From: Myxococcales bacterium
Lineage (GTDB): Bacteria; Myxococcota_A; Polyangia; Polyangiales; Polyangiaceae
NCBI GenBank assembly: GCA_016191785.1
Contig: JACPVJ010000149.1
Coordinates: forward strand, 1 to 64,000
Length of the DNA: 64,000 bases
Direction: 5' to 3'
Shown: positions 30,171 to 41,797 of the stretch, one piece after another
Position numbering within the stretch: the first letter of the stretch is position 1
Layout: each line of letters begins with the position of its first letter
Translations under genes and position numbers: made by a program
Notes under the pieces: model-generated
What the model was told of the DNA's origin: nothing
What the model saw: only the letters and a program-made list of their open reading frames with translations
The model's database searches: none

Positions 30171-31088
30171 GTGAAAGCCACCCGCGTCGCGCTGGTCTCG
30201 GTCATCCTTGCTCTCGCCGCGCTCCTGGCGGCCCCGGGCTGCAGTCGCAGCGCGCTCGACCTGGACGACTCGGCCGGGGCAGGCGGCGCCGACGGCGGGG
30301 CGTCGTGCGGGGACGGCAAATGCAAGGCCGGCGAGTCGTGCTCGACCTGCCCGCTGGACTGCGGCCTGTGCGAGACCTGCAACGACGGCGCCTGTGACCC
30401 GAGCGAGAGTTGCTCTTCGTGCCCCGAGGACTGCGGGCTGTGCGGCAGCTGCGGCAACGGCACCTGCGACGCGGCCGAGAGCTGCCTGTCGTGCGGCCAG
30501 GACTGCGGCGCGTGTCCGACCTGCGGCGACGGCTACTGCAAGGGCGCCGAGACCTGCCAGTCGTGCGCGCCGGACTGTGGCAAGTGCGAGACGTGCGGCG
30601 ACGGCAGCTGCAAGGCCTCCGACGGCGAGTCGTGCTTCACCTGTCAAGAGGACTGCGGCAAGTGCGCCGGCTGCGGCGACGGCGCGTGCACCGGCAGCGA
30701 GACCTGCGCGTCGTGCACCCAGGACTGCGGCGTGTGCAGCGTGTGCGGCAACGGCAAATGCGAAGCGACGGCGTTCGAGACCTGCTCGAACTGCAACCAA
30801 GACTGCGGCGAGTGCGAGCTGCTCTCGTGCTTCATGATCGTGACCTGCGCCCTGGGCTGCGTCGAGCTTCAACAAGACCCGCCGAGCTTCAGCGTGTCGT
30901 GCGTGGCGAACTGCGTCTCGAAGGGCTGCGCCGACGTGCAGTTCTTCGTCGATCAGACGCTGAGCTGCGCCTTCCAGCACGTGAACGAGATCGCCGACTG
31001 CGCCGACGGCCCGGGCAGCGTCATGACGTGCGCGCAGAAGTTCTGCGGCGCCGAGCTCAAGGCGTGCTTGGGCGCGACCTGTGAATAG
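30171..31088 (+). CDS. Lipoprotein with seven Cys-rich repeats
   Basis: The GTG at 30171 begins a lipoprotein signal ending AAPGC (Cys24). The mature protein has seven tandem copies of a 24-26-aa unit CGDGxCxxxExCxxCxxDCGxC, each with six Cys, followed by a distinct Cys-containing C-terminal domain of about 85 residues (ten more Cys). The unit resembles disulfide-rich repeats in myxobacterial surface proteins. Such a protein must be folded outside the cytoplasm. Ligand and role are unknown. It follows the sigma-54 activator by 51 bases. Confidence 0.82.
   Translation: MKATRVALVSVILALAALLAAPGCSRSALDLDDSAGAGGADGGASCGDGKCKAGESCSTCPLDCGLCETCNDGACDPSESCSSCPEDCGLCGSCGNGTCDAAESCLSCGQDCGACPTCGDGYCKGAETCQSCAPDCGKCETCGDGSCKASDGESCFTCQEDCGKCAGCGDGACTGSETCASCTQDCGVCSVCGNGKCEATAFETCSNCNQDCGECELLSCFMIVTCALGCVELQQDPPSFSVSCVANCVSKGCADVQFFVDQTLSCAFQHVNEIADCADGPGSVMTCAQKFCGAELKACLGATCE
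30306..30830 (+). repeat. Seven tandem 72-78-bp repeats coding Cys-rich units
   Basis: Units begin at each CGDG/CGNG/CNDG motif and are 72 bp (five) or 78 bp (two). Sequence identity between units is moderate, so duplication is old or selected for at protein level. Confidence 0.8.
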
Positions 31089-36072: not shown

Positions 36073-36100
36073 TTGTACACGGTCGAACCCGGACTACACT
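36073..36100 (+). promoter_or_regulatory. Promoter of the ArsC/Spx-like selenoprotein gene, possibly leaderless
   Basis: A -35-like TTGTAC (36073-36078) and -10 TACACT (36095-36100) are 16 bases apart. Transcription would start 6-8 bases after the -10, which is the A of the ATG at 36107. There is also no Shine-Dalgarno in TTCCCG before that ATG. Confidence 0.5.
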
Positions 36101-36106
36101 TTCCCG

Positions 36107-36448
36107 ATGCTCGAGCTGATCTGCAAGAAGACTTGAAGCACCTGTCGCAAGGCGGTCGCCTTGCTCGACGAACACGGCGTGAAGTACCGCTACCGCGAGT
36201 ACACCGAAGAGCCGCTGACCGGGGCCGAGATCAGCAAGGTCCTGAAGGCCCTGGGGCTGCGGCCCAAGGAGGTGATTCGCAAGAACGACAAGGCGTACGC
36301 CGAGCTCGAGCTCACCGGCAGCGAGCCCGACGCGAAGCTCGTGGCGCTCATGGCGAAGCACCCGACGCTGCTCCAGCGACCGATCGGCGTGAAGGGCAAG
36401 CAGGCGGTCATCGGGCGCCCACCCGAGAAGCTGCTCGAGCTGGCCTGA
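36107..36448 (+). CDS. ArsC/Spx-family oxidoreductase, probable selenoprotein (TGA at codon 10)
   Basis: Reading from ATG 36107 gives 113 residues in one frame except for TGA at 36134-36136 (codon 10): MLELICKKT-TGA-STCRKAV. Related ArsC/Spx/YffB proteins have a short beta strand, then a redox Cys and, three residues on, Cys or Ser (C-S-T-C-R-K type). Here TGA occupies exactly the first Cys, giving a Sec-x-x-Cys motif. The rest matches the family to the end, including HPTLLQRPIGVKGKQAVIGRPPEKLLEL. A hairpin with a GGTC loop starts 10 bases after the TGA (see 36147-36164). The product would be a small thiol/selenol oxidoreductase; arsenate reduction is only one possibility. A true stop or a sequencing error cannot be excluded; selenocysteine machinery is not in this window. 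Confidence 0.8.
36147..36164 (+). promoter_or_regulatory. Putative bacterial SECIS hairpin
   Basis: GCAAGGC (36147-36153), loop GGTC (36154-36157) and GCCTTGC (36158-36164) form a perfect 7-bp stem. The loop lies 18-21 bases after the TGA, in the range accepted for bacterial SECIS elements, and contains the G-U step that SelB is known to need in E. coli fdhF, whose loop also carries GGUC. A lower GTC/GAC pairing with two bulged bases (TC at 36165-36166) could extend the stem. It is inside the reading frame, as expected. Confidence 0.75.
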
Positions 36449-39982: not shown

Positions 39983-41005
39983 TCACGCGGCGCGCTCGGC
40001 GGCCTGCTCGGCCTCGGCTTGCTGAAGCGCCTCGAACGGGTCCTGCCAGGTCTCGTACTCCAAGATGCCGAGCTCGGCGAAGCGCTCGCGTTGCCGCTGC
40101 GAGAGCAGGCCGGCGCGTTTCACCGCCGGCACGATCTTCGAGAACAAGATCTTCCGGAACTCTTGCTGGCCCACGTTGTTCAGCGTGATGTCCATGCACT
40201 CTTTGACCGGCAGCCCGGTCTTCTCCCAGACCTCCTGGAACAAGAAGCGGTCCCGCATCAGCACGGCCGCCTCGTACACGAAGTCCTCACGCTCGCGCAC
40301 GTCCGACTCTTTCTGGTCGGCGTAGAAGTCCCGGAGCGAAAGCACGCCGTAGGCCACGTGCCGCGCCTCATCTTGAATCACGTAGGTGGTCAGGTCGCGA
40401 AGCAAGGGCTCTTGCACGTAGTTGCGGGTGACGCCGAACGCAGCGAGGGCCAGGCCCTCGACCATGATCTGCATGCCGAGCAGCTTCATGTCCCAGCGCG
40501 AGTCCTTGAGGATGCGATCGAGCAACGACTTGAGGTGAGGGCTGATCGGATACGAGTTTCCGATTTTGTCGTGCAGGTAACGATCGAAGACCTCGACGTG
40601 ACGCGCTTCGTCCATCACCTGGGTCGAAGCATAGAGCTTCGACTCGATGTCCGGAACGGCGTTCACCAGCTGCGCCGCGACCAGCATCGCGCCCTGCTCG
40701 CCGTGCAAGAACTGGGACTGCATCCAGGCCGGCATCTCGCGACGCAGCTCGAGGTGCTTCTTCGGGTCGAGCTTCGCGTAGATCTCGGAGCCGAAGAGCG
40801 GGTGCATGAACTCGGGGATCTGGGCCTTCTCGATGTCCACGTCGATGGACCAATCGAGCCGTGTCTCGCCGTCCCACTGCGCTAGCTTCGACTTCCGGTA
40901 CAGCTCCCGCAGATCTTCGCGGGTCTTCTCGTAGCCCCAGTTGAAGCTGATATCGAGCTTCGCCTCGATGTGCTCGACGTCGATCGGACGGGTGGCAGCG
41001 GACAT
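39983..41005 (-). CDS. Diiron ferritin-like oxygenase/oxidase-type protein
   Basis: The 340-aa helical protein has the diiron ligand pattern of ferritin-like oxygenases: an Glu in LHGEQGAMLVAAQL, DEARHVEVF, a later Glu in MVEGLALAAFG, and QDEARHVAYG. The duplicated E...DEARH pattern is that of R2-like/AurF-type diiron proteins. It may hydroxylate or oxidise an unknown substrate, or serve redox sensing. A strong AGGAGG precedes the ATG. Three palindromes and a TetR-family gene lie upstream and divergent, so it is probably repressed by that TetR (inference). Confidence 0.82.
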   Translation of the reverse strand: MSAATRPIDVEHIEAKLDISFNWGYEKTREDLRELYRKSKLAQWDGETRLDWSIDVDIEKAQIPEFMHPLFGSEIYAKLDPKKHLELRREMPAWMQSQFLHGEQGAMLVAAQLVNAVPDIESKLYASTQVMDEARHVEVFDRYLHDKIGNSYPISPHLKSLLDRILKDSRWDMKLLGMQIMVEGLALAAFGVTRNYVQEPLLRDLTTYVIQDEARHVAYGVLSLRDFYADQKESDVREREDFVYEAAVLMRDRFLFQEVWEKTGLPVKECMDITLNNVGQQEFRKILFSKIVPAVKRAGLLSQRQRERFAELGILEYETWQDPFEALQQAEAEQAAERAA

Positions 41006-41101: not shown

Positions 41102-41775
41102 ATGCTTCCCGTGGTGTCCGAAGCCCGATCGCTCCGCCGGAACATGCCCGACCCCGAAGCGGGGGCGCCGGGCCGGAGCTTCGTGCAGCAGCGGGCGCGG
41201 GACACCCGCCAACGCCTGCTCGCCGCGGCGGCCGAGCTGTTCACCGAGCGGGGCTACGACGACACCCAGACCCCCGACATCGCGGATCGCGCCGGCGTCG
41301 CCGTCGGGACCTTCTATCGTTACTTCAGCGATAAGCGGCAGGCCTTCTTCGAGCTCAGCGCGCGGCACCTCGAACAGTCGTACCAGAGCGTCGTGACCCG
41401 GCTCACCCCCGAGGCGTTCGCCTCGACCCGCACCCGTCGCGAGCGTCGCGCCACCATCGATCAGGTGATCGACATCTTGTTCGAGAGCACGGCCGAGAGC
41501 CCGGGGCTCACCCGCGAGTTTTTGGCGTTCGCCATGCGCGACGCCGAGCTCGCGCGCCTGCGCGACGACTACGAAGAGCGCGGGCGGCTGGCCATCGCCG
41601 CGCTGATCCGGGCGAACCTGCCTTCCGCGCGCATCCCCGACGCCGACGCCGCGGCGCGCGTGATCTCGGTGGCAGCACAAGACGTGGCGCTGGTCACCGC
41701 GGGCCTGCGCGGTCCAGCCCCGTCGCCCCGCGAGGCCAAGGCGATCCGTGCTGCATTGGCCGACATGTTCTATCG

Positions 41776-41797
<22 letters not shown>
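41102..41797 (+). CDS. TetR/AcrR-family transcriptional regulator
   Basis: The 231-aa protein has a TetR HTH (RQRLLAAAAELFTERGYDDT...IADRAGVAVGTFYRYFSDKRQAF, about residues 36-80) and a helical ligand-binding domain. It is likely to bind the palindromes just upstream and control the divergent diiron gene and itself. The start could be ATG 41102, or later in-frame codons such as the ATG at 41144 (MPDPEAG). It overlaps the hybrid kinase gene tail to tail by 22 bp. Confidence 0.9.

Follow-up and report, generated by a model that had tools for sequence, protein, structure and literature searches.

An ArsC-family gene with an in-frame UGA and a conserved bSECIS-type hairpin in a Myxococcales bacterium: a predicted selenoprotein

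Described selenocysteine-containing ArsC proteins

ArsC proteins containing selenocysteine (Sec) are a known kind, described from 2005 to 2008. In the accessible portions of the sources, a Sec-containing arsenate reductase of the UxxS form was reported from the Sargasso Sea set in 2005 (PMC1088965), and both UxxS and UxxC forms of Sec arsenate reductase were reported from GOS in 2008, with 42 UxxC sequences under "arsenate reductase 2" (cd03032) (PMC2398784). The available part of a 2006 table contains two ArsC-like selenoproteins and lists, for the myxobacterium Anaeromyxobacter dehalogenans, 11 selenoproteins with none that is ArsC-like (PMC1794560). As far as its accessible text goes, a 2026 review tabulates the UxxS form under TIGR00014 and the UxxC form under NF041106, citing GOS 2008 for the latter (PMC13188914). 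A first-pass annotation of the locus described here had suggested that Sec-containing ArsC-like proteins may have been seen in metagenomes, and these partial sources show both forms indeed in print. Our literature searches found nothing on selenoproteins or selenocysteine in myxobacteria, nothing on Myxococc selenoproteins together with SelB, and nothing for ArsC family, selenoprotein and selenocysteine as such. No record of the subfamily described below was met in the accessible text, though its members may be among the GOS "arsenate reductase 2" sequences. The subfamily seems to be uncurated so far.

The locus lies in a stretch of 64,000 nucleotides (the window) from a genome of 8.3 Mb in 216 contigs that is 94.9% complete. 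Like the UxxS proteins, the window protein belongs to the ArsC family, has a predicted Sec in the place of the catalytic Cys and has a bacterial SECIS. It differs from them in being U-x-x-C and in having Cys6 and mostly Lys or Arg at position 8 in place of His and Pro. The NF041106 proteins are likewise ArsC-related and U-x-x-C, but their motif lies around WYYHRKGUTSC and a long branch separates them from the window protein in the tree. With the glutaredoxin-dependent ArsC (E. coli type, Cys form) the window protein has in common three Arg residues, the GRP motif and the fold (TM 0.91-0.93), whereas it has predicted Sec for Cys, the extra Cys6 and Cys13, and no H-N-P. The Spx/MgsR proteins share its C-x-x-C-R-K active-site pattern, in which the window protein has U for the first C; however, the window protein falls under the cut-off of their model (TIGR01617) and resembles their structures only up to TM 0.81.

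Nine genomes (G326, G443, G242, G380, G348, G388, G422, G324 and G046) have both the UGA form and an NF041106 protein over the curated cut-off. Overall, 77 of the 377 genomes sampled from the window's phylum contain an NF041106 match above the cut-off, and among those listed each but G445 has an in-frame TGA. The 20 NF041106 genes that were fetched (L110-L129) have predicted hairpins with G-U near the apex.

Reading frame, family and active site

The frame from ATG 36107 to TGA 36448 on the forward strand encodes a 113-residue ArsC-family protein with an in-frame UGA as codon 10 (Table 1). TGA 36134-36136 is the sole internal stop, the remainder of the frame is open, and the terminal TGA lies at 36446-36448. 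The first-pass annotation had described this frame as open save for the TGA at codon 10, with coordinates accurate to the base. It had also foreseen that standard annotation would yield a truncated protein from TTG 36161; the translation table 11 ORF list indeed holds only TTG 36161..36448 (95 aa) in this frame. When the contigs of the same genome were searched with the window protein, the sec-arsC-like gene alone matched at E 0.001. Inspection by eye showed no ribosome site upstream of ATG 36107, and TTGTAC-N16-TACACT (36073-36106), which ends 6 nt 5' of the ATG and is conserved in G001, lies nearby; the transcript may thus be leaderless. A scan for consensus promoters and terminators found none and likewise did not report this element.

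Table 1. Positions of the sec-arsC-like gene and its sites in the window
Feature	Position	Strand	Remark
sec-arsC-like gene, 113 residues, predicted U at position 10	36107..36448	+	second TGA is the real stop; Pfam ArsC 59.6 bits vs cut-off 24
UGA, predicted to be read as selenocysteine, codon 10	36134..36136	+	UGA in 45 genomes, Cys in 1
bSECIS core hairpin GCAAGGC-GGUC-GCCUUGC, apical loop 17 nt past UGA	36147..36164	+	perfect 7 bp in 41/45 UGA forms
Extended stem UGUC/GACG with UC bulge	36143..36170	+	predicted; not kept in all relatives
Cys6 codon	36122..36124	+	Cys in 44/44 subfamily; in classical ArsC, His (of H-N-P) in 26/28
Cys13 codon (TGT), presumed resolving Cys of U-x-x-C	36143..36145	+	TGT in 28/33 relatives
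Arg58 codon, presumed equivalent of E. coli ArsC Arg60	36278..36280	+	44/44 and 28/28
Arg91 codon, presumed equivalent of ArsC Arg94	36377..36379	+	44/44 and 28/28
Arg104 codon, presumed equivalent of ArsC Arg107	36416..36418	+	44/44 and 28/28

With C substituted for U, the protein passed the gathering score of Pfam ArsC (PF03960). It scored 89.7-89.8 bits with TIGR00014, 58.4 bits with TIGR01617 (Spx/MgsR) and 22 bits with NF041106 (ArsC_rel_Se_1), each below the curated cut-off (106.05, 75.05 and 85, respectively). The best E-values among the 31 subfamily members scanned are only slightly better than that of the window protein, so the failure to reach the TIGR00014 and NF041106 cut-offs is very likely subfamily-wide. 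A tree was built from 78 proteins: 31 of 46 subfamily members, 32 of the 34 other ArsC relatives fetched and 15 of the 20 NF041106 proteins fetched. The subfamily forms one side of a branch (98/88) and NF041106 lies far off (100/99), in an alignment of 113 columns, few for 78 rows, for which the bootstrap was unsettled and long branches prompted a program warning. An AlphaFold model made from 31 sequences has a pLDDT of 91.7, and a Foldseek search with this predicted model returned arsenate reductases first (TM 0.93), with Spx at up to 0.81. Profile and predicted structure together show the putative product to be a thioredoxin-fold ArsC-family oxidoreductase. The first-pass annotation had called the protein ArsC/Spx-type; the ArsC family stands, and glutaredoxin-type ArsC is a closer match than Spx, by bit scores and TM.

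We aligned 28 classical ArsC proteins, left from 34 after two near-duplicates and four distant sequences were dropped, with 44 subfamily members: the Cys form together with the 45 UGA forms, from which two fragments were removed. Neither set shows any variation at Arg58, Arg91 or Arg104. By residue offset these presumably correspond to R60, R94 and R107 of ArsC. L4, C6, T9 and C13 are conserved in all 44 subfamily members. The two sets differ around the UGA: position 6 is invariably Cys in the subfamily vs mostly His in the classical proteins, position 8 is Arg or Lys (42/44) vs Pro (28/28), and position 13 is Cys (44/44) vs Ser (25/28). The counterpart of codon 10 is Cys in all 28 classical proteins. 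The predicted active site of the clade is C-x3-U-x2-C, which replaces H-N-P-x-C-x-x-S. The relatives had been expected to have C-x-x-C; Cys or predicted Sec is indeed found at codon 10, but the classical ArsC proteins in the alignment are mostly C-x-x-S (25/28), with C-x-x-C in 3/28.

The hairpin downstream of the UGA

The perfect 7-bp stem with a GGTC loop that had been noted at 36147-36164 was found exactly so. We compared it by hand to constraints given in the accessible text of the 2026 review: a loop of 3-9 nt, an upper stem of 4-16 bp, a G in the first two loop bases, a distance of 16-37 nt from the UGA and an MFE of at most -7.5 kcal/mol (PMC13188914). The window hairpin has a loop of 4 nt (GGUC) and an upper stem of 7 bp at 17 nt from the UGA, and the 39 nt after the UGA fold with an MFE of -14.8 kcal/mol; each value lies within the stated limits. 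In a chance model with random synonymous codons for CRKAVALL, drawn according to codon usage in eight selected window genes, a perfect 7-bp stem arose in the same register in 2.8% of cases, together with a GGTC loop in 0.5%, and in any register within 48 nt in 2.9%. Among 200 dinucleotide shuffles of the 39 nt, eight folded as well as the native sequence (z -1.85). By itself the window hairpin is only mildly unlikely to arise by chance, and its evidential weight lies in its conservation. The pattern TGA-N8..32-GGCGGTCGCC occurs 57 times genome-wide, compared with 27 times for the reversed control; the apex pattern is thus unspecific across the genome, and we claim no further selenoproteins from it.

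With G-U allowed, 41 of the 45 UGA forms have a stem without mismatch, and 309 of 315 pairs form overall. Pairing drops to 30 to 58% once the 3' arm is displaced by 1-3 bases. The four sequences with a mismatch in the fixed register are L054, L076, L085 and L138, of which L085 can pair in a shifted register. Compensatory changes are found at pair 5, where G-C has become A-U (three sequences), and at pair 2, where C-G has become U-A (one sequence); covariation of the stem is real but sparse. The loop reads GGUC in 41 sequences, CGUG in three and AGUU in one, with G-U inside every loop.

Codon choice in the hairpin is restricted. We compared positions where at least 85% of the sequences share one residue that has four or six codons. 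The synonymous entropy was 0.51 bit in the five hairpin codons (14 and 16-19) vs 1.68 in 18 other conserved codons, of which the lowest had 1.39. Neither group includes Thr9 (1.50) or Leu20 (0.93), the codons that border the UGA and the stem. Leu19 is TTG in 41 of the 45 forms, while TTG makes up 13.5% of 443 Leu codons in the eight window genes. Cys13 is TGT in 28 of the 33 sequences first compared; the window prefers TGC, with TGT at 10.7% of 75 Cys codons. Arg14 is replaced by Ser in four proteins, each time as AGC, and the stem bases are unchanged.

Distribution, alternative readings and possible function

The window protein was searched against 144 genomes, its own among them, and matched in 83 at E 0.001. 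Beyond its own genome, the TGA form was found in G001, G060, G009 and G082, with a fragment in G046. The protein of G001, from the window's genus, is 86% identical, and G022, which has the same genus code as G060, carries TGC at codon 10. Over all searches, codon 10 is UGA in 45 genomes (own included) and Cys in one. The 45 comprise 34 from the window's phylum (33 of 377 genomes, plus G082) and 11 of 347 genomes drawn from a second phylum, that of an Acidobacteriota MAG. The 33 are 32 matches of at least 125 bits and the G046 fragment (68 bits). Among the matches listed for the 377 genomes, G022 is the only upper-range match without TGA, the next lies at 103 bits, and from there down a stop occurs only in the G046 fragment. 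In the second phylum, ten matches of at least 157 bits each have one TGA, and G454 has a fragment with TGA. The subfamily normally has predicted Sec, and Cys only exceptionally.

The Cys form (L019, in G022) has CTG instead of TTG at Leu19, which breaks one hairpin pair. It is sister (96/80) to the UGA form L020 of the same genus, the pattern expected from a Sec-to-Cys reversal. This apparent reversal lies within one genus, with SelB retained in G022. The UGA-form copy in G046 (L153) starts near a contig end, has lost the family sequence after about residue 45, and is a decayed gene or an assembly error.

Other in-frame TGA codons were seen among more distant ArsC relatives. Ten of the 347 second-phylum genomes have relatives (L140-L149, 86-92 bits against the window-family profile) with the motif Y-x-K-P-T-U-x-x-C-R; these look like another Sec-ArsC lineage, and their predicted downstream hairpins differ. 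A far weaker match (L154) in G070, from the family of the window's genome, is an ArsC relative with a TGA near base 646 of the strand that was read and the motif NANUSTS, a U-x-x-S form. Its downstream hairpin has the GGC-GGUC-GCC apex in common.

The first-pass annotation had proposed looking for selA, selB, selC and selD, and all four are present in the genome. SelB (C69:51235-53121) scored 271 bits (cut-off 242), the adjoining tRNA-Sec, with anticodon UCA, 70 bits (cut-off 47) and SelA, on the same contig, 479 bits (cut-off 268). SelD (L066, G000 C112:134957-135883) scored 310 bits (cut-off 125) on a separate contig. Its gene also contains an in-frame TGA (QGGGU), and 26 nt past this codon comes GGUC, at the apex of a hairpin whose predicted fold pairs the first G. 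In the window's phylum SelB was found at E 1e-65 or better in 216 of 377 genomes, 211 of them over the curated cut-off. When the two genome lists were compared by eye, SelB was present in 32 of the 33 UGA-form genomes vs 184 of the 344 others (Fisher p 1.3e-7, uncorrected for kinship). Only G348 combines the UGA form with a lack of SelB at E 1e-65, and its genome is 80% complete. SelB also exceeded the cut-off in each of three UGA-form genomes examined outside this sample, namely G082 and, from the second phylum, G453 and G454. G002, of the window's genus, has SelB, yet only a weaker Cys-type ArsC match; the presence of SelB alone is not sufficient for a UGA-form gene.

Several other readings of the locus were weighed. 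The truncated ORF in the table 11 list and the incomplete copy in G046 would suit a pseudogene, or a TGA that arose as a sequencing or assembly error, which the first-pass annotation had named as a possible refutation. However, the identical TGA is found in 45 genomes of two phyla, its recurrence in dozens of separate assemblies speaks against sequencing error, and the residues on both sides of it (L4, C6, T9 and C13) are conserved. For the family we reject this explanation, which is extremely improbable. Nearly as improbable is a real product of 95 residues from TTG 36161, without the active site. That ORF is open, but L4, C6 and T9 lie 5' of the UGA and are invariant, and TTG 36161 is the Leu codon 19, whose first T is paired in the hairpin; on these grounds we reject it. 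Readthrough of the UGA as another amino acid, Trp or Cys, is rejected as equally improbable. It would account for the in-frame UGA and nothing more, whereas the genome has complete Sec machinery, TGA also terminates the sec-arsC-like gene and several relatives, the bSECIS-type hairpin is conserved, and the sole non-UGA relative has Cys.

A further reading grants the selenoprotein but takes it for an Spx-like regulator of transcription, in which Sec-x-x-Cys serves as a redox switch, instead of an enzyme; this is improbable, if less so than the preceding readings. It would fit the C-x-x-C-R-K pattern, the matches of Spx models to all 31 members scanned and the similarity of Spx structures to the model (TM up to 0.81), but ArsC structures fit better (0.93), and the 58.4 bits lie below the TIGR01617 cut-off, with TIGR00014 scoring higher at 89.7. 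The UGA at 36134-36136 is almost certainly decoded as selenocysteine, judging from comparative evidence. It is very probable, arsenate as substrate being left aside, that Sec is inserted within an active ArsC-type redox protein. The Sec-x-x-Cys oxidoreductase predicted in the first-pass annotation is thus supported by the Sec machinery, the UGA and Cys relatives and the conserved hairpin.

In the mechanism we propose, SelB and Sec-tRNA-Sec would decode the UGA with the hairpin at 36147-36164. Sec10 may act as the nucleophile on an oxyanion or an oxidised substrate, which Arg58, Arg91 and Arg104 may hold. Cys13, possibly Cys6, would resolve the adduct as a selenenylsulfide, which the thioredoxin or glutaredoxin system may reduce. 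Arsenate is the leading guess for the substrate, at appreciably less than an even chance; otherwise another disulfide, persulfide or oxyanion would be reduced. The assignment to arsenate is weakened by the lack of the H-N-P loop's His and Pro and by flanks in which no recurrent neighbour was found. A broader proposal falls just short of an even chance: a separate Sec-ArsC lineage with practically obligatory Sec (45:1), in which the three-chalcogen site Cys-x3-Sec-x2-Cys beside oxyanion-binding arginines makes a stand-alone reductase with a substrate or electron donor unlike that of classical ArsC. A plain table 11 ORF list truncates the sec-arsC-like gene. The locus adds a selenoprotein subfamily with unusually strict Sec use and the apparent Sec-to-Cys reversal described above, and offers a ready test of the benefit of Sec to an ArsC-type enzyme.

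Clustering of neighbours at 45 loci in 44 genomes (ORFs of at least 90 aa, mostly 1.5 kb per side) found no recurrent neighbour; the output consisted of the gene itself, its shadows in other frames and neighbours common to at most three loci. Rfam at gathering thresholds and ARAGORN reported nothing in the window. Matches were found in 2651 plasmid records and 13 phage records, all below 60% identity; the eight plasmid records listed are annotated arsC, and among the five phage records listed two are annotated arsC and three are unannotated. Of the two direct neighbours in the window, one has no Pfam match and one is SnoaL-like. Further along, 39983-41005 on the reverse strand encodes an AurF-type N-oxygenase domain (44.9 bits, cut-off 29.6), beside a gene at 41102-41797 that looks TetR-like by eye. 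On the forward strand, 30171-31088 encodes a Cys-rich protein with repeated C-G-D-G-x-C ... D-C-G units that looks secreted by eye.
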